NCBI GenBank assembly: GCA_021821045.1
Contig: JAKACW010000021.1
Coordinates: 1 to 64,000, forward strand
Source: Pseudomonadota bacterium
Lineage (GTDB): Bacteria > Pseudomonadota > Gammaproteobacteria > JAADHS01
Length of the DNA stretch: 64,000 bases
Direction of reading: 5' to 3'
A model generated the notes under the pieces. It saw only the letters and a list, made by a program, of their open reading frames with translations, was not told the DNA's origin and made no database searches. Both the position numbers and the translations under genes were made by a program. Positions 29,332 to 63,671 of this stretch are shown here, piece after piece; the first letter of the stretch is position 1, and each line of letters begins with the position of its first letter.

Positions 29332-29475
29332 CCGCTCGCCGTCGTATACGTAAAGCCCCGTATGTCGACCGATTGAACAGCGGACATTTGGCCCGCTCGG
29401 AGCGTTCTTTCAATGCGCTATGCATGTTTTGCTAACTATCTGAAAAATATGCTGTGAGTAGGGATGGGTAGTGGG

Positions 29476-29491
29476 TGGCATGATGATTGCT
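29476..29491 (+). promoter_or_regulatory. Predicted sigma-54 promoter upstream of small PilZ gene
   Basis: TGGCATG-ATGA-TTGCT matches the -24/-12 consensus TGGCACG-N4-TTGC at every key base except one C to T change, with exact GG-N10-GC spacing. Transcription would start near 29502, leaving a leader of about 110 bases before the PilZ ATG. The 281-base gap 29332-29612 has room for activator sites. No factor-independent terminator was noticed after epmA. Confidence 0.8.
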
Positions 29492-29612: not shown

Positions 29613-29939
29613 ATGGAGCGTCGTTGGACAACCCGGACGCGACTGGGCATTGACGTGCAAGTGGCGTACGACGGTGGGGAACTGAAGGGCTGCCGTACCC
29701 GGGATATCGGTTTGGGCGGGGTGTACGTCACCAGCGCCGATCCGCTTCCCGTCGGACAGTTTGTGGAGCTAACTTTTGACGTGCCTGTGGGCGGAGAAGA
29801 CGAACAGCCGCGAATTCGCGCCAAAGTCGTACGATCCGCGAACGAAGGCATGGGTTTGATGTTTCGCGATTTCGATGCGACGGCGTTTCGCTCGTTGCAA
29901 CGTGTTATGAAGATCAAGGACAGCGCGTTCGCGCCATAA
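29613..29939 (+). CDS. Small PilZ-domain protein
   Basis: 108 residues, a single PilZ domain. It starts MERRWTTRTRLGIDVQVAYDGG, with an RxxxR-like element (RRWTTR, RTRLG) before the barrel, and has the second signature TRDIGLGGVYV (D/NxSxxG type). This fits a c-di-GMP effector. GGGGAGAGG precedes the start. It stands alone behind a strong sigma-54 promoter and ahead of a terminator, so it is a one-gene transcript probably controlled by an RpoN activator such as PrsR. Confidence 0.85.
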   Translation: MERRWTTRTRLGIDVQVAYDGGELKGCRTRDIGLGGVYVTSADPLPVGQFVELTFDVPVGGEDEQPRIRAKVVRSANEGMGLMFRDFDATAFRSLQRVMKIKDSAFAP

Positions 29940-39482: not shown

Positions 39483-40238
39483 TTGAGCAACGTAGATGCG
39501 ATCGGCATCATCCCCGCCGCCGGGCGCGCGACGCGACTGGGACCGCTGCCGTGCAGCAAGGAGATTCTTCCCGTTGGCGTGCGTAAAGGACAGCCGTCGG
39601 TTCGCGTCGCGATTTCCTCTTGTCTCGAAAACATGCGCGCCTCGGGGATCAAACAGGCGGTTGTCGGGATTACTTCGAACAAGCAGGACGTGGCGACGTA
39701 TCTGGGCGAGGGTGAAATGTTCGGCATGGGCATCTCATGCCACGTGATCGAGCCAACCCAAAGTGCGCCAGAGACCGTGGCGGCGATTCTGCCATTTGCC
39801 AAGGCCAACCCTTGCGCATTGGCCTTTCCGGACATTTTGTTCGATGCGCCGCACGCCTACCGCGATCTATTGGCGACGCTGGCAACGCGGCAGGCGGATG
39901 TGGTGTTGGGATTGTTTCCCGCCGATCGACCGCACATCTGCGACATGGTGGCCGTCGTGCCGGATGGGACCCTGGAGGACATCGACATCAAACCGCAGAA
40001 AACGAACTTAACTCACACCTGGGGCATCGCGGTTTGGAATGCGGCGTTTAGTAGATTTTTGCTGGACGCGGTGCGGCAACCGCATCAAGGCGCGCGCGAG
40101 CGGTATATGGGCGACGTGGTGATGGCGGCCAAGCGTGCAGGAATGCGCGTGCTGGCCCACAAGGTTTGCGCTGAGCCCTATATCGACGTGGGCACGCCGG
40201 AGGGGTTGAGAGCGGCGTGGCGCGCGAGTCTTACTTGA
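39483..40238 (+). CDS. Sugar nucleotidyltransferase-like protein
   Basis: 251 residues from TTG 39483, which has GGAGGGAG at the right distance; a GTG at 39459 lies upstream of that site. The nucleotidyltransferase signature is IIPAAGRATRLGPLPCSKEILPVG, with FPDILFDAP as the metal-binding Asp region and PYIDVGTPEGLRAAW at the end. It is shorter than RmlA or GalU, so the nucleotide sugar is unclear. It converges on prsR with an 8-base overlap. The polysaccharide context suggests precursor supply. Confidence 0.85.
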   Translation: MSNVDAIGIIPAAGRATRLGPLPCSKEILPVGVRKGQPSVRVAISSCLENMRASGIKQAVVGITSNKQDVATYLGEGEMFGMGISCHVIEPTQSAPETVAAILPFAKANPCALAFPDILFDAPHAYRDLLATLATRQADVVLGLFPADRPHICDMVAVVPDGTLEDIDIKPQKTNLTHTWGIAVWNAAFSRFLLDAVRQPHQGARERYMGDVVMAAKRAGMRVLAHKVCAEPYIDVGTPEGLRAAWRASLT

Positions 40239-41589
40239 TGCCGTGTCGATTCATCAGGTCGTACAGCGTCGGCCGGCTGATGCCCAGGACTTCCGCGGCG
40301 CGGGAGATGTTTCCGTCATAGAGTCCGATCGCGCGTTGAATGGCGGCCTTTTCGGCTTCGTCGCGCACTTGGCGCAGATTCAATGGCCGGGGTTCTTCGC
40401 CGGCTGCCGTCAGTTCCAGGTCTTCCGCTGAGATCAATGCGCCGTCGGCCATGATAGCCGCCCGTTTCACGCGATTTTCCAGTTCGCGCACGTTGCCCGG
40501 CCAGGTGTACATTTCGATGGCGTGAACCGCTTCCTGATTGAAACCCCTGACCGACGTCTTGCTGCCTTTTTCCGCAAGGTAGCTCTCGAGGATGGCGCGG
40601 GCGATGAGAACGCTGTCGCCCTCGCGCTCACGCAGCGGGGGAATGCGAATGGTGATCTCGCTGATGCGATAGAATAAGTCTTCGCGGAATTTGCCTTCAG
40701 CGATTTGTTCCGATAGTTTCTGGTGCGTCGCGCACACTACGCGAACGTCGACGGGGATCTCGCCGCGACCGCCAACCCGCTCGATGACGCGTTCTTGGAG
40801 AAAACGCAGCAGCTTGGCCTGCAAGGCTTGGGGGAGATCGCCGATTTCATCTAGAAAGAGCGTGCCGCCGTCGGCGTATTCGATTTTCCCAATTGTTTGC
40901 TTGGTCGCACCGGTAAAGGCGCCTTTCTCATAACCAAACAATTCACTCTCGAGAAGGTTCTCCGGGATCGCTGCGCAGTTGATCGCCACGAAGCGCTTCT
41001 TCGCCCGCGGGCTTAAGTCGTGCAAGGCGCGCGCCAGAAGTTCTTTGCCGGTGCCGCTCTCGCCCAATAGCAGTGTCGTCACGTCCGTCGGTGCGACCTT
41101 TTCGATGGTGCGGCAGACTTTGACCATTTGCGGACTGGACGCCACGATTCCGTTGAGCGGCGACTGGCCCTTGTTCTGGCTCAGCTTGCGATTCTCCATT
41201 TCAAGCTGAGACACATGAAGCGCGCGCTTGACGATCAGCGACAGAATTTCCGAGTCGATAGGTTTTTGGTAGAAGTCGTAGGCGCCGAGCGCAATGGCCT
41301 TGACCGCGTTGGCGCGATCCTCGTTACCCGTTACAACAACCACTTTGGTGTCCGGCGCGATAGAGAGCACTTGCTCGAGTGTAGCCAGGCCTTCCGAGGC
41401 GCCATCGGCATCTGGTGGCAAACCCAAATCCAATGTCATGACCGGCGGTTCGTGGCGCCTGATGAGTGCCAGCGCGTCCTCGCGATTGTTGGCCATGACG
41501 ACATCGAAGCCCTCGAAGCTCCATTTCAACTGTTTTTGCAGACCGGGATCGTCTTCGACGACCAGCAATTTGATCTTTTCCGTGCTCAC
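40231..41589 (-). CDS. prsR: PrsR, sigma-54-dependent response regulator of PEP-CTERM/exosortase type
   Basis: 452 residues: receiver domain (KLLVVEDDPGLQKQLKW, phospho-acceptor Asp in VMTLDLGLPP), AAA+ domain with LLGESGTGKELLARALH, the sigma-54 contact motif ELFGYEKGAFTGATKQ and GGTLFLDEIGDLP, then a Fis-type HTH (ISRAAEVLGISRPTLYDLMNRHGIK). It fits the PrsR family that accompanies exosortase/PEP-CTERM loci and drives RpoN promoters. It follows prsK by 32 bases. Three sigma-54 promoters in this window (29476, 59157, 59806) are natural candidate targets. Confidence 0.92.
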   Translation of the reverse strand: MSTEKIKLLVVEDDPGLQKQLKWSFEGFDVVMANNREDALALIRRHEPPVMTLDLGLPPDADGASEGLATLEQVLSIAPDTKVVVVTGNEDRANAVKAIALGAYDFYQKPIDSEILSLIVKRALHVSQLEMENRKLSQNKGQSPLNGIVASSPQMVKVCRTIEKVAPTDVTTLLLGESGTGKELLARALHDLSPRAKKRFVAINCAAIPENLLESELFGYEKGAFTGATKQTIGKIEYADGGTLFLDEIGDLPQALQAKLLRFLQERVIERVGGRGEIPVDVRVVCATHQKLSEQIAEGKFREDLFYRISEITIRIPPLREREGDSVLIARAILESYLAEKGSKTSVRGFNQEAVHAIEMYTWPGNVRELENRVKRAAIMADGALISAEDLELTAAGEEPRPLNLRQVRDEAEKAAIQRAIGLYDGNISRAAEVLGISRPTLYDLMNRHGIK

Positions 41590-41621: not shown

Positions 41622-43754
41622 TCAGTTATCGGCTGTCTCAACCATCTCTCGAGAAACGGCGGGCTTCCCTCTGTCTTCGGCTTCGCCGGGTACGGAGAGT
41701 GGAATATGAATCGTGAATGTCGATCCTTTGCCGGGTTCGCTGACGACCTGAATGGCGCCGCGCAATTCGTTAATGTACTCGCGGCTTTCGTATGCGCCGA
41801 TGCCCATGCCGCCTTGACCCTTGGTGGAATCGAAGGGGCGAAACAGGCGGTCACGAATAAAGTTCGCGTCCATGCCGCAGCCGTTGTCGGCGATCTCGAC
41901 GACGGCATTGTTGCCGTCGCGGCGGGCTTTCACTTTGACCCAGCCGTCCCCGGGGGTGGCATCTTGGGCGTTTTGTACCAGATGTTCCATCACTGAGCTG
42001 AGCCGATCCGCGTCGGCGACAACCATGAGTTCGGATGCTTCCATGGCAAGAGTCGGCCTGGGCTCCCAGTCGGCACGGTGGTTGATGACTTCGCGAAGGA
42101 TGTTGGCGAGATTGACTAAATTGGGTTTGTTCTCGGTGACGTTGCCCTTGCGCAGTTGGGCCAGCAAGCGATTCATTTTTGCGACGCAGTTTTCGACAGT
42201 CGAGATCGCGTCTTCCATGAACTCGGGATTGTGTTTATGTTTGGCGGCGTTGTTGGCGACCAGAGAAAGCTGCGCGACAAGGTTCTTCAAATCATGGATG
42301 ACGAACGCGGAGAGGCGGCTGAATGCCTGGAACTCACGCGCCTCGACCAGTGCTTGCACCGCCATAAGCTGGGCCAAGTGGGTTGCCGCTTGTCGCCCGG
42401 CGGTTTTCAACAGGTCGTGGTCTTCCCAATTTATCTCATGTTCGATTTGTGGCTTGCATACCACGACGAAACCCAGCAGTTCCACGTCTTGCATGAGCGG
42501 CACGACAAGCCACGCATCTCTCATTTCATTCAACCAGGGCGGGAGGACGAGTTCTTGGTATAGATCGGGGTCGTCGCGGTATTCGCGGAGATTGATGATC
42601 CACTGCCAGCTCCGCAGAAACTGCACCAGTGAGCTGGTGGACGATTCCCGTGTCACGGCGCTGGGCGAGACATTAATGTGGGCGACTTGGTCGAAGTTGG
42701 TGGATTCCGAGCGCAGCCACAGTGTGCCGCCCTCGCTATTAACGATTTGACTCAGTGCCTGAATCACGGTTTCCAGCAAATGAGCGCCGGGGCCGCCGCG
42801 GGAAAGCGTGCGAATAAAGCGCAGCCATTCGTCACGGTAGTCGTATTTGTAGTTGAAAAAGTGTTTGTTGAAGAAAACCTTCAATTGGGCGCGCCGCCGT
42901 TCCGACGCGTAGATGATGCTCAAGGCGACGAACGCGGCGAGAAGCAACCCCGACTGCAACCAAGCGGTGCCTTCCACGCCTTGTTTTCCGAAGTAGTAGG
43001 CGCCGATGGCAACGAGGGAAACATAGCTTCCTGCGGCGAGCATGACGACAAAGTGGAACGCTGCGTTGTGCGAGATGTGAATGCGCCGTGACCAGGGATT
43101 CTTGCTGGCGACCGTCAACAGCCCGATTCCCGCAACGACGACGCCGACTGCGCGCAGCTCTTCGGTAGGGCCGGTGATATTCGCCAGGGCTAACCCATGA
43201 TGCAGAAAATCGATCGCCGGGATCGGCAGCAGGCTCAAGGCGAGATATTTAAACGCATGGTCGCCAGCATCGTTGGTGTAGCGGTGCAGCCGAATCAACA
43301 GCAACATGCAAGCGCAGGCGATGAGTGTGAAGCCAATATGGGCCAACGGCATAGAGAATAGGGCCGAGGCGGCGTTTGCATTGGAAGTGGGCGCCGCGAC
43401 GTTGGATGCGAAATACAGCAGTACGCCGCTCGTTCCAACGGCGATGGCCGCGCGAACGGCTCCGCGCGCCCGCGGTGTTTTCTCTAGGGGGTGGGCCAGC
43501 AAATGGAGCAGGAACCCAAGCCAGACGATATTGCGCAGCGTTTCCAGGAAGCCGAGAAACCCGTGGGTATTGGCGTTCTCGATATGATGCGTCGCGAAGT
43601 AGGTGCCGGTGCCCGTCCAAAGCAATGTCGCCACCAGAGCGGTGACCAACAAAAAGACGTCGAGTTGACCGCGCCAGTGGATTAGCTTCTGGGCGCTGGC
43701 GAGACCGACCGCGATGGCGCCGGCGCTCCAGACCGCAATGCCGACATCAATCAT
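41622..43754 (-). CDS. prsK: PrsK, membrane sensor histidine kinase of PEP-CTERM/exosortase type
   Basis: 710 residues from ATG 43754 (MIDVGIAVWSAGAIAVGLASAQ); a start at 43865 adds a charged tail and looks unlikely. About eight transmembrane helices fill residues 1-290, then a GAF-like domain, then the kinase core: FSRLSAFVIHDLKNLVAQLSLVANNAAKH with the phosphorylated His, and ATPase boxes around MEHLVQNAQDATPGDG, IADNGCGMD and KGQGGMGIGAYESREYI. This is the PrsK layout. It presumably phosphorylates PrsR, encoded next. The signal is unknown. Confidence 0.9.
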   Translation of the reverse strand: MIDVGIAVWSAGAIAVGLASAQKLIHWRGQLDVFLLVTALVATLLWTGTGTYFATHHIENANTHGFLGFLETLRNIVWLGFLLHLLAHPLEKTPRARGAVRAAIAVGTSGVLLYFASNVAAPTSNANAASALFSMPLAHIGFTLIACACMLLLIRLHRYTNDAGDHAFKYLALSLLPIPAIDFLHHGLALANITGPTEELRAVGVVVAGIGLLTVASKNPWSRRIHISHNAAFHFVVMLAAGSYVSLVAIGAYYFGKQGVEGTAWLQSGLLLAAFVALSIIYASERRRAQLKVFFNKHFFNYKYDYRDEWLRFIRTLSRGGPGAHLLETVIQALSQIVNSEGGTLWLRSESTNFDQVAHINVSPSAVTRESSTSSLVQFLRSWQWIINLREYRDDPDLYQELVLPPWLNEMRDAWLVVPLMQDVELLGFVVVCKPQIEHEINWEDHDLLKTAGRQAATHLAQLMAVQALVEAREFQAFSRLSAFVIHDLKNLVAQLSLVANNAAKHKHNPEFMEDAISTVENCVAKMNRLLAQLRKGNVTENKPNLVNLANILREVINHRADWEPRPTLAMEASELMVVADADRLSSVMEHLVQNAQDATPGDGWVKVKARRDGNNAVVEIADNGCGMDANFIRDRLFRPFDSTKGQGGMGIGAYESREYINELRGAIQVVSEPGKGSTFTIHIPLSVPGEAEDRGKPAVSREMVETADN

Positions 43755-44097
43755 GCGGGGCGACCTGCGCACCCGGCTGGCTGAGAACTTGCGCTGTGCG
43801 CGATCCTCATCCTTGAAGCGTAATTCAGCGCCATGATGGTGAGACGACTCCTTGGCCGGTACCATAGAGTGCCCCCGAGGCCGTGCCGAGGGCTGGTAAC
43901 TAACTAGCGGAAAACTCGAGACAAATATCGGTTGTTTTGGGGGGGATCTTTAACGCCAGTTTGGGCGCGGGTATTAAACCAATGCAGTGCGCGGGGCTGG
44001 TCAAGTTAATTGGCTGCGAACCGACAATTTTTCAATGTGTTGGGTGTTTGGCGTACAATAGGCGCCCTTGCGATGGCCAGTGCCGTAGGTATTCACG

Positions 44098-55769: not shown

Positions 55770-58700
55770 TCACGGCTGACCGCTGAGCGCATTAAGCCAC
55801 AGTGCGGCCATTGCTTTGTAGCCCGCTCCGTTAGGATGCAAGTTGTCGGCTGTAAGCTGATTCTGATTGGTCTTGAAATGGTTGTAGAAGTCCGGTGGTG
55901 TGACCGTGATGCCGTTGCTGAGGACGAGTTCATCGACAACCGCGTTATAGCTTTGCAGTCGCGCATCGTATTGTGCATCGCCAATCGCATAGGGCAGCTT
56001 GGCCAGGTACGCTTGGGCGCCCGCGGAGCGGACGATGTCGATGATCCGCTGCAGATTATCCTTGAGACTGCCGGCGTAGCCTGCATCGCCCGGGTTGAGT
56101 CCAAGCCCGCTGGGAACCGGCAGTGATCCGCCGCCGTCGTTGGTTCCCAGTTGTATCAGGTACGCATCCGCGCCCGTGTTGGCCGCCACAACGGACGACA
56201 TACGCGCCAGCATGCCGCTGGATGTTATGCCGGGTACCGCTGATTTTTCCTTAGATACGGTGTAAGCGCGGCCCGTCGCGGCGGTGAGTAGGTCATTCAA
56301 TATCGGCGGGTAGCCGCCATCAAAGTTGCGCCCGTCCTGAGAGAAATCATCGGAAGAATCATCGTCGCCCACGCCGAACGAAATGCTGTCGCCAAGGGCT
56401 ACATAGTACTTCCCGATGCCGACAGCGCCAATTTGGTGAAAGGCGTCGGCCCCGTCGACGGCGGTGCCCTGTTGCGTCACGATAAACGCCTGGAGTTCAT
56501 GCTCCCCGGGGCTGACGGAGTTAAAAACTGCTTCGTAGGGCGGCAGGGCGTCAGTTACGGTGGCGCCGCCGTCCAAGACGAACTTTACTCCCCAGCCCGC
56601 GTGAAGGTTCGGGTCAAGACAGACGCTCGCGGTAACGCTGAGCGACGTGGTGGATTGAATGTGATACGGTCGCGGCGACACGATATGAACGAACGGTTCG
56701 TGGCATTCGCCCTCGATATTGATTTCCGCTGCAGCTGCCGATGTTGTTCCATTGATGCCGCTTACAGTGAGCAGTCGGACGAACTGTCCTGTCTTCGGCG
56801 GGAACAGAATCTGTTTCTCTCCGGGGCCACCGGCAAATCCACCGATGGCGACTGGGGCGCCCCAGTCAACACCATTTTCGCTGACGAAAAGGCGATACCC
56901 CTTGATGTTGCCAAGCGTGTCGTCCTGTCGGGGCAGGTACCGCAATCCGTCGAGCGAGTAGGCGGAGCCGAGGTTGATCTGAATTTCGTGGGGGTGGCTG
57001 GGCGGCGTGGCCGAGGAGTAGCTCGTCACCCAGTTGGTGTCAACGTTACCATCAAAGGCATTTACGCCTTTGCCATCCACTGCGGTCGATTCTGCACTGC
57101 TCGCGTGGTGGAGCGACCACTGCGTTTGGTCCAATAGCAACGGATATGTGGAGTCACGTACCTTGATGATTCGCTGAGCCGGAGTGGAGTCAATTCGACC
57201 GGTCGCGTCGACCGTGGTCATGGTGACGACGAACGTGCCCGGTTGATTGAAAGTAATCGGGCCGGCGTTTTGTTGCCACTGATCCGCTACTCCGCTGTCG
57301 CCAAAGGTCCACACGGTTGCTAGAGGCAAATCGTTGTCGCGGTCGACACTCGTTCCTGAAAATATTACTGAGTCTCCCACGTTAATGGTTTGATTGCCGG
57401 CGGGACTGTCGATCACGCCGTTAGGGCGATGATTTCCGCTGAACGGCGCGCCGACAACGTCAAATTCGGCGGCACTCGTCCATGGGGCGTCATTGACCTC
57501 ATTCAGCGCAACGAAACGCACGTAGCGCGCCGTTGCGAGCGGGAACGAGATGCTTTTGGCGCTTTTTGAGTTCTCGAATCGACCGGCGGCAACCGGCGTT
57601 CCCCAGTTGACGCCGTCCTCGCTGACGTAAAATTCATAGTCCTTGATCAGCCCGTTAACGCTAGTGTCCTGACGAGGAACATAGCGGAAACCTCCGACAT
57701 CATGCAGCGCGCCAAGGTTGATCTGAATCTCGTGCGGCGGAGGCGGCTGGGCGGTTCGCCACTCGCTGTGCCAAATGGTGGCCGGGTCGCCGTCGAATGC
57801 CTTTTGTGCATTGCCTGCTCCATCCTGGCTATCGACGTAGTGCAGGCTCCAGGCCGTTTTTGGAATCGTGTTAAGAACATAGAGGACGAACATCTGGTCG
57901 GCCGAGGCAGACGGTGTGCCGCTGTCGGTGGTCCGGACACGAACGCGATGGGTGCCGGACTGCGCGCTGGCGGGGACCCATGTAATCAGTCCACTGGCAT
58001 CGATCTGCATGCCGTTCGGCTTCTCCAGCAATGCGAAATCGAGGGAATTGCCCGGGTCGGGATCGATGGCTATGACGCGATAGGTGAAGAGTGTGTCGAC
58101 GACCGCTGCGGTGGTGGGCAACGAGGCGATCGTCGGGGCTACGTTTACATCTAGGACACGAAGAGTAAACGTCAGCGTGTCTGTGGCGTTGGCCTGATCA
58201 CGAACCTCAACGGTAACGGTGTGGTTGCCGATGTCGCTGGCCTGCGGCGTCCAGCTTAGCTGGCCGGACTGCTCGCCGATGCTCATCGCTGAAGGAGCAG
58301 CAGTCAGTCTGAATCGCAAGCTATCGCCGCTGTCGACGTCGGAGGCCGTGACAGTGTGTTGGTATTGTTCGCTTTCGTTCACCTGCAGATTCGGAGTCCA
58401 GGTGATCGACGGCGGGTCGTTCACATTAACGACAACCACGTTAAAGGACTGTCGATCGGTATCGCCCGCAGCGTCAGTCGCGACGACGGCGACGACGTGG
58501 CTGCCAACGTTTTGATTGGACGGAGTCCATTCGATTAAGCCGGAGCTTGCGGCAATGGTCATGCCCTGCGGGGATTGCTCAAGGCTGAAGACATAGGGTG
58601 CGGAGGTTTCGCCGCCTTCGGCATTGACGTCGTAGCGATAAGCTTGGTCTTCGGTTGCGTTGGTAATTGCGGCCGAAATGATTCGAACGCCCGCGTCTTG

Positions 58701-59093
58701 GCCCGCAACGGATAACGTGAAACTCTGGGTTCCGGTCGCGCGGTCGCCATCGGTGACGACGACCGTGACGGGATGATTGCCGATGTCGTTGTTTCCCGGC
58801 GACCACGAGATCAGCCCGCTGGCGGCATCAACGGCCATGCCGGCCGGGGATTCCGACAACGAATACCGAAGTACGTCGCCGGTATCGGGGTCGATGGCTT
58901 CGACATCGTACTCATAAACTTGGCCCACGGACGCGTGGGTAATGGCGTTTGACACCACAATAGGCGGACGATTCTCGACGACAACCGGGCCCGGGGGCTC
59001 GGGCGGATCGATGGGGGCATCTCCGCCACCGCCGCCACCGCACGCTGCCAGCAACACAAACGGTAAGATCGCCCATGCCTTCTTGATTTTCAC
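55770..59093 (-). CDS. Large lipoprotein with Ig-like repeats, two discoidin domains and SGNH hydrolase domain
   Basis: About 1107 residues from GTG 59093 (GGGA upstream); ATG 59108 is possible. The signal ends in the lipobox LLAAC, followed by a Gly-rich linker. Residues about 40-405 hold four He_PIG/cadherin-like repeats (pattern GLISWSPGNNDIGNHPVTV). Then come a F5/8 type C domain (AWSLHYVDSQDGAGNAQKAFDGDPATIWHSEW), a PKD-like domain, a second F5/8 C domain, an Ig-like domain, and a C-terminal SGNH/GDSL hydrolase with YVALGDSISFG, GTND and DNLHPNG. A surface-anchored esterase acting on acylated glycan is inferred. A sigma-54 promoter lies at 59157. Confidence 0.88.
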   Translation of the reverse strand: MKIKKAWAILPFVLLAACGGGGGGDAPIDPPEPPGPVVVENRPPIVVSNAITHASVGQVYEYDVEAIDPDTGDVLRYSLSESPAGMAVDAASGLISWSPGNNDIGNHPVTVVVTDGDRATGTQSFTLSVAGQDAGVRIISAAITNATEDQAYRYDVNAEGGETSAPYVFSLEQSPQGMTIAASSGLIEWTPSNQNVGSHVVAVVATDAAGDTDRQSFNVVVVNVNDPPSITWTPNLQVNESEQYQHTVTASDVDSGDSLRFRLTAAPSAMSIGEQSGQLSWTPQASDIGNHTVTVEVRDQANATDTLTFTLRVLDVNVAPTIASLPTTAAVVDTLFTYRVIAIDPDPGNSLDFALLEKPNGMQIDASGLITWVPASAQSGTHRVRVRTTDSGTPSASADQMFVLYVLNTIPKTAWSLHYVDSQDGAGNAQKAFDGDPATIWHSEWRTAQPPPPHEIQINLGALHDVGGFRYVPRQDTSVNGLIKDYEFYVSEDGVNWGTPVAAGRFENSKSAKSISFPLATARYVRFVALNEVNDAPWTSAAEFDVVGAPFSGNHRPNGVIDSPAGNQTINVGDSVIFSGTSVDRDNDLPLATVWTFGDSGVADQWQQNAGPITFNQPGTFVVTMTTVDATGRIDSTPAQRIIKVRDSTYPLLLDQTQWSLHHASSAESTAVDGKGVNAFDGNVDTNWVTSYSSATPPSHPHEIQINLGSAYSLDGLRYLPRQDDTLGNIKGYRLFVSENGVDWGAPVAIGGFAGGPGEKQILFPPKTGQFVRLLTVSGINGTTSAAAAEINIEGECHEPFVHIVSPRPYHIQSTTSLSVTASVCLDPNLHAGWGVKFVLDGGATVTDALPPYEAVFNSVSPGEHELQAFIVTQQGTAVDGADAFHQIGAVGIGKYYVALGDSISFGVGDDDSSDDFSQDGRNFDGGYPPILNDLLTAATGRAYTVSKEKSAVPGITSSGMLARMSSVVAANTGADAYLIQLGTNDGGGSLPVPSGLGLNPGDAGYAGSLKDNLQRIIDIVRSAGAQAYLAKLPYAIGDAQYDARLQSYNAVVDELVLSNGITVTPPDFYNHFKTNQNQLTADNLHPNGAGYKAMAALWLNALSGQP

Positions 59094-59156
59094 AGTGTGT
59101 CCCGCCATTGGGCTGAAACGTTAACGTTGACATGCGCCCCGGTATTCGGAGTCGAC

Positions 59157-59172
59157 AGCATGAACCGTGCCA
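59157..59172 (-). promoter_or_regulatory. Predicted sigma-54 promoter of the SGNH lipoprotein gene
   Basis: On the minus strand TGGCACG-GTTC-ATGCT has the full TGGCACG -24 element and a GC at -12 with exact GG-N10-GC spacing. Transcription would start near 59145, about 50 bases before the GTG. An AACTATCT block lies 32 bases upstream (59205-59212), as in the promoter at 29476. Confidence 0.72.
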
Positions 59173-59805
59173 TAGTTTCCCATTTGCGCCATTTTGTGAC
59201 GTCGAGATAGTTGCGAAGCGAAGTGAAATCCCGTTTATGGACAATATGTTTCATTCGCTTTCTCGCGGTCCTCGAATCCCTTGGATCGGCCGCTTTGCCA
59301 CGGCGCCATGATCGGGGGTGTAAACAAGTTCGACGTCGCCCCCCTCTTATTGGAAGTCTAATTCGAGTTCTGATCGGGAACCGAGCGGCTTTTACCAACA
59401 GGGAGTGTGAAAAAATGCCAGTGAAGACGCCACGCGTAGATCGCATCACTTTGGCGGCACCTCGCTGCCGCGTTCTACACTGACACCGGCCTAGAAGCTC
59501 GACAAAGGCGACATTCTAACGTGAGCGCATGCAACGTCCAATAGCGAAATGATTGGGTCGGGGTCGCAGTTTCGCCCTAATTGAAACGTGCGATTACATC
59601 TTCCGCAGGTGGCAACGGCGCATGACATGGCCCCGCTTGTCCCCAAGTCGGGGAACTTTACAGTCGCCCATCGTAGTCTTAAGCAGCTGCACGCGGTACG
59701 GTTGAAAAACGCCGCGGCATTGTTTTGGCGCTTCGTTTGCAACACTTTGATTCATAGATATTTATTGGGCGGACGAGCGGAGCTATCCCGGTGATTTTCG
59801 AGTAA

Positions 59806-59821
59806 TGGCACGGATTCTGCT
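59806..59821 (+). promoter_or_regulatory. Predicted sigma-54 promoter of the discoidin/cadherin lipoprotein gene
   Basis: TGGCACG-GATT-CTGCT: full -24 element TGGCACG and GC at -12 with exact GG-N10-GC spacing; the -12 begins C instead of T. The start would be near 59832, about 93 bases before the ATG at 59925. Confidence 0.72.
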
Positions 59822-59924
59822 ACCTCGACTTCAACGCGAAGAATGCTCGTTGCGGGACTCTCCGACCCGACATGTTCGTTTCGAAGAGCCTTTTATCACT
59901 TTTTAATCGCTTGGGATCAACTTT

Positions 59925-62900
59925 ATGTGCCTGTCACTCGGTCCGGTTCGATCGTTAATTGGTGTTGTGGGGCTGTCTGTACTACTTAGCGCATGCGGTG
60001 GTGGCGGTGGAGGCGATGCCGCGCCGTCCGGATCGGATCAGCCGCGTCCCGCCGGATCAACAACCATCGAAGGGCGCGTTATAAAAGGCCCGGTGTCGAA
60101 CGCTGTTGTCCGTGTCTACGCGTTGGGCGCCGATGGCACTCCCGCGTCGGAACCGCTGGCGCAGGGGATAACAAACGAACAGGGCGCGTTTACCCTCGGA
60201 TTTACCGATCCAGCGGTGGCCCACGTTGTTGTCGTTGCGACAGGCGGAGCTTACGTCGATGAAGTCAGCGGAGAGCAAGTTGCCTTCGCGGAAGCCGACT
60301 CGATGGAAGCCGTATCGTTGCTGCAGTCCAGCGGCAATCACACAGTCAATGTGACTCCGTTGACTACTCTGGCGGCGGCCAAGGCCAAATGGGTCAAGGC
60401 CAACACCGAAAAGACGCTCACCGACGCGATAGTGTTCGGCAATTTGCAGGTGTCGGCGCTATTCGGGATCGAAAACGTGGTCACGGCCGCGATCCCCGGT
60501 CTTGACGCACTCAACGCAGCTCCCCAAGAGCAGCAGACCTACGCCCTGCTTCTGGCGGGTTTCTCCCAGATGGACGCTGACGCTGTCGATCGCACAGCCG
60601 CTCAATTAATCGCGGCCATGGCCAATGATTTCCGGGTTGATGGTCAGATTGGCAATGATCCGAATTCGCCGAACTTTGAGAATCTTGTGGCGGCGGTAGA
60701 ACAGTTCGTTACCGCGCAAGGCGGGGCAATCACCGCTCACCTGCCGGTTGCCGTTCGCGACCGGTTGAACTCGAGCCCGGTTGCGGGAGCTGACTTTCTC
60801 GAGACCGACGAAGAAACTCCGGTATCATTCTTCCCGCTTACCAATGACGGCGATCCGAACAGCGAGCGGATCGAGTTGTTCAGCGTCGAGTCCCAGAGCG
60901 CGCACGGCGGTTCCGTAAGTCGCAACGCCGATGGATCGGTGACCTATACGCCCGCCAAAGACTTTGCCGGCACCGATCAGTTTTCCTACACCATTCTAGA
61001 CGCGAGCCTTAACAGCGGCATCGGTAGTGTCACGATCAACGTGCGCAACGTAAACGACGCGCCGGTAGCCGGTGCGCCTGTATATGATGCGGCCGAAGGC
61101 GTGGCTTTAGTCAGTATCCTGTTGGCGACGGATGTCGACGGCGACGAACTGGTTTATTCGTTTCCCGGCCAGGGCAGCTTGGGGACCGTAACTTTGTTGA
61201 ACGCACGAACCGGTGAGTTCCGGTACGAGCCCCATGCCAATGCGTCCGGCGTCGATTCGATAGCGTTCGCGGTTTCCGACGGCACCCTGGCGTCCACCGG
61301 ACAATTGCAGATTAACGTCGCGGCAATTGACACCGCTCCGGTCGCGCTGTCGGCGCACTTTACGTTGGATGAGGACACCGTCCTTGCCGGGCAATTGCCC
61401 GCGCGGGAGGACGATGGCGATGCATTGGCATTCACCATTGTTGGTCAGCCCACCAAAGGCGTGTTGTCGTTGACCAACGCGGCCACTGGGGAGTTCACCT
61501 ACGTTCCCGCGGCGAATGCCAATGGTCAAGACTCGTTCTCGTTCCAGGTTCGTGATGTCGGTTCCACCAGCCCCGCGGACTCCAATGTTGCTACGGCAAT
61601 CATCTCGATCAATGCGATCAATGACGCTCCATCAGCTCGTCCGGACTCGCTCGGCAGCGTTGCCGAAGATACGAGCTTCAACTTCACTCTGGCGACGCTA
61701 TTGGTTAACGACGTCGATGTTGACGGAGACAACCTGACCGTTACCGCGCTGACCCTCACCCAGGGCGACGGCAATTTGGTTGTCGCGAACGGTTCGGCGA
61801 CTTTCACGCCGACGCCGAACTATTTCGGTCCCGTGGCGTTTGAGTACACGGTGAGCGATTCCACGTCGACTTCCGTTTCGACCGCCAGCCTAACCGTGCT
61901 TGCGGTTGAGGATGCGCCCGTAATCGTGTCAGGCCCCGTCATGACCGCCCACGACGGACAGACTTACACTTACGCTGTTATCGCGACGGACGGCGATTCG
62001 GTCGACGTTTTGCAGTACTCGCTTTCGGCGGCGCCCGCAGGAATGACAATCAATACCGCTTCCGGCGCAATTTCCTGGTTGCCGTCCAACGCCGATGTCG
62101 GTACGCACGCCGTGACAGTCGTTGTCGCTGATCCCCAAGGCAATACAGCGACGCAGAATTTCCAACTTGCCGTGACAAACGTCAACGACGCGCCGATCAT
62201 CATTTCGACTCCGGCAGCGACCAAACTGTCTGCCGGCAACTTGTTTACTTATCAAGTGGTGGCGACCGATGCCGATGCCGGCGATGCGGTCACTTACTCG
62301 ATGGACGCCTATCCCCTGGGCATGGCCATGGACCCCGCGGGCTTGGTGACCTGGACACCGACCGCGGACGTTTGGGGTTCACGTCGCGTGGTGGTGCGTG
62401 TTACGGACTCGGCGGGCGCATTTGTCACCCAGGAGTTTTACCTGACCGTGGTGATCCCGCGCAACCAGTGGAACGTCACGTTCGTGGACAGCGAGGAGAC
62501 CGTGGCCTTTGATCAACGGATCGATAACGCATTCGACGGCAACCCGGACACCATCTGGCACACTCAGTGGTATCAGCAACAACCGACTATGCCGCATCAG
62601 TTCGAGATCGACCTGGGTGCCACCTACATGATCTCTGGCTTTCTTTCGTTGCCCCAGCAGCTGTGCTGCAACGGCCGCATCAGCCACCAGGAGCTTTCGC
62701 TTAGCATGGACGGCGTGACGTGGAATTCGGTCAACGTCAGCAAGATCGATCCTAGTTCGGCGGAAGAAAAGACGACCTTGATCAATCTTTTGCGGGTGCA
62801 GCCAGCACGGTATGTTCGCTACGTCGCCTTGGAGGCCTATGATAGTCGCCCCTATGCAGCTATTGCGGAGTTCAATTTGCTGGGGGTCGCGACCTCGGAC

Positions 62901-63671
62901 ACACCCGCGACCAATCAGATTACATTGCCGGAAATCCATGTCGTGACCATCAACGCAGGGGAAACCGTCAGCTTTGCGGGCACCGCGTTCGATGCGGACC
63001 TCGGCGCGGCTCCTGCGACGACATGGACCTTTGGCGGCGCCGGCGTTGCCAATATAGGTGGTCTGACGCCCGGTGCTGTACAGTTCAATACGCCCGGAAC
63101 CTTTACGGTCAGCTTCAGCGCCGTGGGCGCGCTGGTGCCTGACACGCGGATCGTGCGCGTGCTCGGCGGCGGCGAAACGCTGGTGCCAAAGGCCGACTGG
63201 GCGGTCGTCGATGTCTCGAGCGAAGAGTGGGCGACCTACGTCAATAGAAACAGCGGCGCGACCGAAGTGCTGCTCGATAGCGTGGCGGAGTACGCCTTCG
63301 ACGACGACGCCCGCACTGTCTGGCATACGCGCTGGTTCTATACGACCTCGGACGGGTTCCCGCATACGTTGACAATAGACCTGGCTGACTCATACGCGCT
63401 CACCGGGATGCGTCACCTGCCGCGGCAGGACACAGTCCCGCGCTCGATCAAGAACTTCAGCATCGAAGTCAGCCTTGACGGCAGCACCTGGTCGACGGCG
63501 ATCGCCAACGGAACGTTGCCCAACTCGACCGCTGAGGCGAAAGTTCTTTTCGACGGGGGGCAGACACTGGACGCGCGCTACGTGCGGTTTACCGCGCTCA
63601 CGCCGATGCGGTCGAATTTCTTCGCCGCGGTGGCGGAGCTGAACCTGATCGGCGCCTTGGCAGGGCCGTAG
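59925..63671 (+). CDS. Large lipoprotein with cadherin/Ig-like repeats and two discoidin domains
   Basis: 1248 residues; MCLSLGPVRSLIGVVGLSVLLSAC gives a lipobox, followed by a Gly-rich linker. A carboxypeptidase-regulatory-like domain lies at about 45-110 (EGRVIKGPVSNAVVRVYALG), then a helical stretch. Residues about 285-665 are cadherin-like/Big_9 repeats (NVNDAPVAG, INDAPSARPDS junctions), 665-845 two He_PIG repeats, then a F5/8 C domain (DNAFDGNPDTIWHTQWYQ, with a CC pair in QQLCCNG), a PKD-like segment and a second F5/8 C domain. No enzyme domain and no PEP-CTERM tail. It is probably an outer-membrane adhesin-like protein binding glycan. It has sigma-54 control from 59806. Confidence 0.88.
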   Translation: MCLSLGPVRSLIGVVGLSVLLSACGGGGGGDAAPSGSDQPRPAGSTTIEGRVIKGPVSNAVVRVYALGADGTPASEPLAQGITNEQGAFTLGFTDPAVAHVVVVATGGAYVDEVSGEQVAFAEADSMEAVSLLQSSGNHTVNVTPLTTLAAAKAKWVKANTEKTLTDAIVFGNLQVSALFGIENVVTAAIPGLDALNAAPQEQQTYALLLAGFSQMDADAVDRTAAQLIAAMANDFRVDGQIGNDPNSPNFENLVAAVEQFVTAQGGAITAHLPVAVRDRLNSSPVAGADFLETDEETPVSFFPLTNDGDPNSERIELFSVESQSAHGGSVSRNADGSVTYTPAKDFAGTDQFSYTILDASLNSGIGSVTINVRNVNDAPVAGAPVYDAAEGVALVSILLATDVDGDELVYSFPGQGSLGTVTLLNARTGEFRYEPHANASGVDSIAFAVSDGTLASTGQLQINVAAIDTAPVALSAHFTLDEDTVLAGQLPAREDDGDALAFTIVGQPTKGVLSLTNAATGEFTYVPAANANGQDSFSFQVRDVGSTSPADSNVATAIISINAINDAPSARPDSLGSVAEDTSFNFTLATLLVNDVDVDGDNLTVTALTLTQGDGNLVVANGSATFTPTPNYFGPVAFEYTVSDSTSTSVSTASLTVLAVEDAPVIVSGPVMTAHDGQTYTYAVIATDGDSVDVLQYSLSAAPAGMTINTASGAISWLPSNADVGTHAVTVVVADPQGNTATQNFQLAVTNVNDAPIIISTPAATKLSAGNLFTYQVVATDADAGDAVTYSMDAYPLGMAMDPAGLVTWTPTADVWGSRRVVVRVTDSAGAFVTQEFYLTVVIPRNQWNVTFVDSEETVAFDQRIDNAFDGNPDTIWHTQWYQQQPTMPHQFEIDLGATYMISGFLSLPQQLCCNGRISHQELSLSMDGVTWNSVNVSKIDPSSAEEKTTLINLLRVQPARYVRYVALEAYDSRPYAAIAEFNLLGVATSDTPATNQITLPEIHVVTINAGETVSFAGTAFDADLGAAPATTWTFGGAGVANIGGLTPGAVQFNTPGTFTVSFSAVGALVPDTRIVRVLGGGETLVPKADWAVVDVSSEEWATYVNRNSGATEVLLDSVAEYAFDDDARTVWHTRWFYTTSDGFPHTLTIDLADSYALTGMRHLPRQDTVPRSIKNFSIEVSLDGSTWSTAIANGTLPNSTAEAKVLFDGGQTLDARYVRFTALTPMRSNFFAAVAELNLIGALAGP

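Follow-up and report, generated by a model that had tools for sequence, protein, structure and literature searches.

A candidate back-to-back PrsR/RpoN promoter pair between two paralogous lipoprotein genes, and a putative PrsR regulon apparently without PEP-CTERM genes

Two divergently transcribed genes for large lipoproteins, here called A (minus strand) and B (plus strand), are separated in this gammaproteobacterial genome by a gap of 816 bases (59109–59924). We consider it likely that two promoters stand back to back in this gap, both activated by PrsR and dependent on RpoN, which would switch on two matrix-binding lipoproteins together with exopolysaccharide (EPS) and c-di-GMP genes. PrsK/PrsR is a known switch of the PEP-CTERM/exosortase system, whose purpose remains poorly understood. 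In this genome, judging from the sites that precede its genes, PrsR appears to control EPS and surface genes and none of its namesake PEP-CTERM proteins.

Results

What in the gap points to a promoter pair? A sequence-only reading had placed there two RpoN (sigma-54) elements, each pointing into a lipoprotein gene, and we find both to be exact, correctly spaced and correctly oriented. The −24/−12 element of gene A, TGGCACGGTTCATGCT, occupies 59157–59172 on the minus strand, with its 3' end 48 nt from the ATG at 59108; the strong element of gene B, TGGCACGGATTCTGCT, occupies 59806–59821 on the plus strand, with its 3' end 103 nt from the ATG at 59925. These are the sole exact matches to TGGCACGN5TGCW within the 64-kb window, by which we mean the whole stretch of DNA analyzed here. 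The spacing from GG to GC is correct in both, within a TGGCAC-like and TTGCW-like context, and the distances to the start codons agree with those of motif 2 of Haft et al. 2006 (about 71 nt, range 23–221; PMC1569441). On a sigma-54 matrix built from general knowledge of the consensus, and thus untrained, the two elements score 16.9 and 18.4, and the strong B element ranks among the genome's best matches.

Taken alone, the sigma-54 motif carries little weight: the genome has no more matches to it than to its reversed control (10 matches to TGGCACGN5TGCW in 4.5 Mb versus 13, and 185 versus 257 when one mismatch is allowed), and some matches, including several of the best ones elsewhere in the genome, fall inside genes. 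The motif by itself was therefore dropped as proof. The sequence-only reading had proposed a comparison with random expectation, and the outcome is divided: two matches in one pre-chosen gap of 816 bases are improbable (Poisson 1.6e-6), but the motif is not enriched genome-wide. We also considered an inverted duplication as the source of both promoter arms and rejected it, as the arms have no significant similarity. An orthologous gap for phylogenetic footprinting was not found among 56 genomes and a named genome collection, which held domain-level relatives only, and no PrsR box or sigma-54 site was present at those relatives that were checked.

In front of proteobacterial PEP-CTERM genes, Haft et al. 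reported a composite site in which a 17-nt motif ending in TTTACA, proposed to bind PrsR, is followed by a spacer of 32–92 nt (mean 62.8) and a sigma-54 element (PMC1569441). Each arm of the gap contains such a box (GTCGN6TTTACA, motif 1 of Haft et al.), upstream of its sigma-54 element and in the same orientation. The putative PrsR enhancer box of gene A, CGTCGAACTTGTTTACA, lies at 59319–59335 on the minus strand, 146 nt before the sigma-54 element, and that of gene B, AGTCGGGGAACTTTACA, lies at 59646–59662 on the plus strand, 143 nt from the strong element and 63 nt from a weaker one. Boxes of the GTCG type number 16 in 9 Mb of strand, so the probability of a chance occurrence is below 1 in 1000 per arm. 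Because PrsR boxes lie upstream of both elements, a chance origin of the gap promoters is not credible.

GTCN7TTTACA occurs 26 times in the genome, and its control 13 times; a sigma-54 site follows most occurrences in non-coding DNA, whereas none follows those within long genes, save one weak match. Similarly, the wider box TGTCGN6TNNACA occurs 49 times versus 18. Of 47 such places checked, 10 are followed within 190 nt by a sigma-54 site, all of them before genes, where about 0.5 would be expected (binomial 5e-11); none of the boxes inside long genes among these 47 places has one. A scan of the whole window for the composite returns three promoters only, those of A, B and a PilZ gene. The third is the remaining RpoN element of the sequence-only reading, TGGCATGATGATTGCT at 29476–29491 on the plus strand, and it too has a putative PrsR box, TGTCGACCGATTGAACA (29363–29379, plus strand), 96 nt upstream; the gene that follows encodes a PilZ-domain protein of 108 aa (29613–29939, plus strand; PF07238).

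The proposed regulators lie in the window as well, as the earlier reading had suggested. PrsR, a sigma-54 activator and response regulator with a GAFTGA motif, is encoded at 40231–41589 on the minus strand (TIGR02915, 744.8 bits versus a cut-off of 502.6), and the sensor histidine kinase PrsK at 41622–43865 on the same strand (TIGR02916, 638.8 bits versus a cut-off of 300). RpoN is present in one copy, and the genome thus holds both the sigma factor and a GAFTGA activator for a sigma-54 promoter. A sigma-54-like match within the prsR coding sequence (41021–41036, minus strand; score 14.7) is most likely due to chance, since it has no PrsR box.

Pattern searches and selected stretches yielded at least 17 box-plus-sigma-54 promoters in this genome; the members on contigs C46, C17, C114 and C7 have degenerate boxes, come from the selected stretches only and have weaker support than the others, and genes outside the window were called as the longest open frame. 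The downstream genes encode the EPS export protein EpsE on C64 (box-to-site distance 86 nt), a WcaJ-type EPS priming transferase (96 nt), the PilZ protein of the window (96 nt), a GGDEF protein on C110 (77 nt; sigma-54 score 12.7), a SleB-like cell-wall hydrolase (76 nt), a DUF3575 protein (74 nt), a small exported protein followed by a PD40/PKD protein (74 nt), a 128-aa exported protein (73 nt), a 1098-aa TPR protein (72 nt), a 1907-aa Big/PKD protein (64 nt), a DUF5658 protein, a Sel1-repeat protein, a glycine-rich short protein and a membrane protein without assigned family (62 nt each), a 75-aa exported peptide (52 nt), and lipoproteins A (146 nt) and B (143 nt, or 63 nt to the weaker site). 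The earlier proposal of an RpoN surface regulon built on lipoproteins, not only PEP-CTERM proteins, is upheld insofar as the promoters precede surface and signaling genes, with PEP-CTERM genes absent; the regulon is not built on lipoproteins, as only two of the 17 promoters precede clear ones.

The sequence-only reading had also called for a check of PEP-CTERM tails and exosortases. Four PEP-CTERM genes were found, and for all four the 500 bp examined contained neither a PrsR box nor a sigma-54 site (0/4). Neither A nor B carries a PEP-CTERM tail, so that the gap departs from the sites of Haft et al., where the downstream gene is usually a PEP-CTERM gene. The genome, which is 98.5% complete, encodes XrtD (572.9 bits versus a cut-off of 400; the XrtA score of the same protein is 183.6, under the cut-off of 208) and a second, XrtB-like exosortase just below its cut-off; no exosortase A (XrtA) was found above cut-off. 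XrtD is accompanied on its contig by three VPVPA-tailed proteins, and the XrtB-like protein by one PEP-CTERM protein (contigs C120 and C134, loci L007 and L008). PrsK/PrsR is itself of the XrtA type, in a genome where XrtA was not found above cut-off.

Does the composite recur in other genomes? Among 369 genomes of the class, 41 contain it with a spacing of 45–75 nt, at 60 places in all, and the reversed control has none. Some 28 of the class loci were read; about 16 lead into PEP-CTERM genes, in agreement with the published account, and the rest include genes for GGDEF, DUF5658 and large secreted proteins. In other genera, too, the box precedes the GGDEF target (44% over 417 aa) and the DUF5658 target (34% over about 110 aa). 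At two of the class loci, which belong to two other genera and have spacings of 74–75 nt, the box stands before a PIG-L deacetylase protein that also has discoidin and PKD domains (L200) and before a He_PIG/laminin-G protein with a GDSL domain (L202). These secreted Ig/discoidin/PKD proteins resemble A and B in having the box and sigma-54 site, the same domain types and a deacylating or deacetylating enzyme; they differ in that their spacing is usual, no lipobox was seen in them and they are not full-length orthologues. In a separate observation, a contig labelled as a Nanohalarchaeota MAG (L099) encodes large proteins with discoidin repeats whose identity to A reaches 47%, which may reflect a domain family common to domains of life or a misbinned contig.

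The spacing in the gap is unusual. The strong elements lie beyond the 32–92 nt of Haft et al. and beyond all other cases encountered here, at 146 nt (A) and 143 nt (B), and a class-wide search for spacings of 128–158 nt returned only the A–B gap and one case of tandem boxes. Arm B contains in addition a weaker sigma-54-like element, TGGCGCTTCGTTTGCA, at 59726–59741 on the plus strand (score 12.3), which begins 63 nt from the box and ends 183 nt before the ATG; no alternative sigma-54 element at the usual spacing was found in arm A. Between box and strong element, arm B also holds an exact IHF consensus, AATCAAAGTGTTG, at 59740–59752 on the minus strand, which overlaps the weak element and, with three matches in 64 kb, is suggestive only. 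Given the weak element at 63 nt and the IHF consensus, either bending would put the strong element of B within reach, or the weak element is the working start. The distances of 143 and 146 nt, the helical phase of the 143 nt in B, which does not match that of the usual spacers, and the weaker B element at the usual distance all count against a PrsR/RpoN divergent pair.

The usual spacers themselves appear to be ordered. The 60 class spacers fall into three groups, 51–54, 61–65 and 73–75 nt (centers about 52, 63 and 74), with nothing between, and in this genome (15 canonical spacers) the series extends to 86 and 96 nt. A test for a period near one helical turn gives p 0.0004 with the spacers of this genome and 0.0002, the lowest value that the test can return, with the class set, which includes related genomes and whose search ended at 75 nt. 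We regard the quantization of box-to-site spacing in helical-turn steps as a strong hint and as unfinished, because the best-fitting period is 11.1–11.3 and because of these properties of the class set. It was not found in the literature consulted.

A and B are, as the sequence-only reading held, paralogous lipoproteins rich in Ig/cadherin and discoidin domains; they share 35% identity over about 600 aa. Protein A (55770–59108, minus strand; 1112 aa, from Pfam and translation) contains He_PIG/Big_9 Ig-like domains, two F5/8C discoidin domains, a PKD domain and a C-terminal GDSL/SGNH hydrolase domain, and the latter is complete (Lipase_GDSL_2 1–178 of 178, E 3e-20), with the GDS, GTND and DNLH blocks of the GDS/GxND/DxxH pattern of SGNH/GDSL hydrolases visible in the translation. 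Protein B (59925–63671, plus strand; 1248 aa, from Pfam and translation) contains Big_9/cadherin repeats, He_PIG and two F5/8C discoidin domains. Their lipoboxes, read by eye in the translation at the end of the signal peptides, are LAAC and LSAC, respectively, each followed by GGGGGGD; with Gly after the lipobox Cys and no Asp at +2, both are predicted outer-membrane lipoproteins. The GDSL domain of A, the PrsR boxes and the second candidate start of B were absent from the earlier reading.

Discussion

We propose that the gap would work as follows. On a signal, PrsK would phosphorylate PrsR, and phosphorylated PrsR would bind the box in each arm, meeting by looping the RpoN-RNA polymerase held at −24/−12, perhaps with the aid of IHF in arm B. 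The PrsR ATPase would then open the promoters, so that A and B come on together with the EPS export, EPS priming and c-di-GMP genes, and a lipid anchor would tie the two proteins to the outer membrane. The probable ligand of their discoidin and Ig/cadherin domains is exopolysaccharide made by the cell itself, from which the GDSL domain of A probably removes acyl groups. A and B would in this way retain the matrix and alter it. By analogy, this would be the role of the PrsR-controlled PEP-CTERM proteins in Zoogloea, and it leans on work in that organism (PMC9012009) and on Aquincola pepA (PMC9850573).

In comparison to the site of Haft et al. (PMC1569441), the gap has the same order of 17-nt TTTACA box, sigma-54 −24/−12 element and start codon within a long intergenic region, and PrsR and PrsK are likewise encoded nearby among glycosyltransferase genes. 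It differs in its lipoprotein targets, in its spacing of 143–146 nt, and in that two copies stand back to back. The RpoN/PrsK-PrsR control of pepA in Zoogloea resiniphila and Aquincola tertiaricarbonis (PMC9012009, PMC9850573) offers a second comparison. Zoogloea prsK/prsR mutants make EPS yet release it into the broth (PMC9012009), and the Aquincola pepA start was mapped to TGGCAC/CTGCTT (PMC9850573); the TGGCAC...CTGCT element and the proposed matrix-holding output at the surface are shared. Here, however, a lipid anchor takes the place of PEP-CTERM sorting, and the proteins are of the Ig/discoidin kind and very large, A having a hydrolase domain as well. Furthermore, RpoN did not control EPS synthesis in those systems, whereas in the present genome the box is found at epsE and wcaJ.

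Several other explanations bear on the promoters. It is very improbable that the elements are chance matches and that the genes use another promoter: the sigma-54 motif is indeed no commoner than its reversed control and sometimes falls in genes, but two exact, outward-pointing sites at the proper distance, each with a published box, would seldom arise in a given gap, and the control for the composite gave no match in any of the 369 genomes. More weight attaches to the idea that the sigma-54 elements are real and driven by another enhancer-binding protein, the PrsR boxes being remnants. The out-of-range spacing would fit, as would a strong sigma-54 element on C64 (48297–48312, minus strand) that precedes a discoidin-protein gene and has palindromes, GTCGCTATGCAGCGAC and GTCTCTATACAGAGAC, in place of a PrsR box. 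No such palindromes were noticed in the A–B gap, however, and the box is intact and correctly oriented in both arms, where chance is a poor explanation for it; we judge this idea to be quite unlikely. A stronger contender is that promoter B starts at the weak element, with the strong element as a second start that is served from the same box through IHF bending or by another activator, so that the two arms differ in architecture. The weak element lies exactly 63 nt from the box, the commonest spacing class, its score is near that of the box-linked GGDEF promoter on C110, whose protein is conserved under the box elsewhere, and an exact IHF site separates the box from the strong element. Conversely, few sigma-54 matches in the genome are as good as the strong element, arm A has no counterpart at the usual spacing, and the weak element overlaps the IHF match and is far from the ATG. 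We regard a start at the weak element as a serious possibility, though not the one toward which we lean.

A different objection concerns function: the promoters could depend on PrsR and RpoN while the lipoproteins act as adhesins to foreign surfaces or as glycan-foraging enzymes. Discoidin, Ig/cadherin and GDSL domains are found in all these roles, and paralogues in the genome with chondroitinase-B-like domains could act on foreign glycans, but A and B share the box with the genes by which the cell exports and primes its own EPS, and with c-di-GMP proteins, a putatively co-regulated set. On balance, these alternative functions seem rather unlikely to us, and we retain the reading of A and B as matrix-binding lipoproteins switched on with the EPS genes.

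We further suggest, tentatively and with some doubt, that in this lineage the PrsK/PrsR-RpoN circuit has lost its tie to PEP-CTERM/exosortase sorting and now serves an EPS and surface regulon, in which lipid-anchored Ig/discoidin proteins and an EPS-modifying enzyme replace the PEP-CTERM matrix holders, and in which one divergent gap has enhancers at an unusually long range. The retention of the switch, with 17 box promoters and no PEP-CTERM gene among them, suggests that the circuit governs EPS and surface functions generally; PEP-CTERM proteins would then be one possible output of it. Since its control was without a match in the 369 genomes, the composite could be used to read the regulon in any genome, and the helical-turn spacing makes a direct prediction on how PrsR meets the polymerase.

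Finally, we note related discoidin proteins elsewhere in the genome. Secreted or lipoprotein paralogues bearing discoidin domains are encoded at C64:46182–48239 (minus strand), C64:48663–52322 (plus strand), C63:15972–18554 (minus strand) and C25:1–10977, and some carry a chondroitinase-B-like beta-helix or a cohesin-type domain. The sigma-54 element at C64:48297 (locus L033) stands 57 nt before a discoidin/chondroitinase-B-like protein; no PrsR box precedes this gene, and the two palindromes, which are similar to each other and lie roughly 80–160 nt upstream, are perhaps the sites of another sigma-54 activator. Likewise, the right ends of contigs C70 (64082–66544, L037) and C64 (67864–70935, L034) stop inside near-identical PKD/discoidin repeats in compatible orientation, and may be the two parts of a single gene, broken in the assembly, that encodes a giant discoidin/GDSL protein. 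If this join is true, epsE would lie close to the A–B pair.
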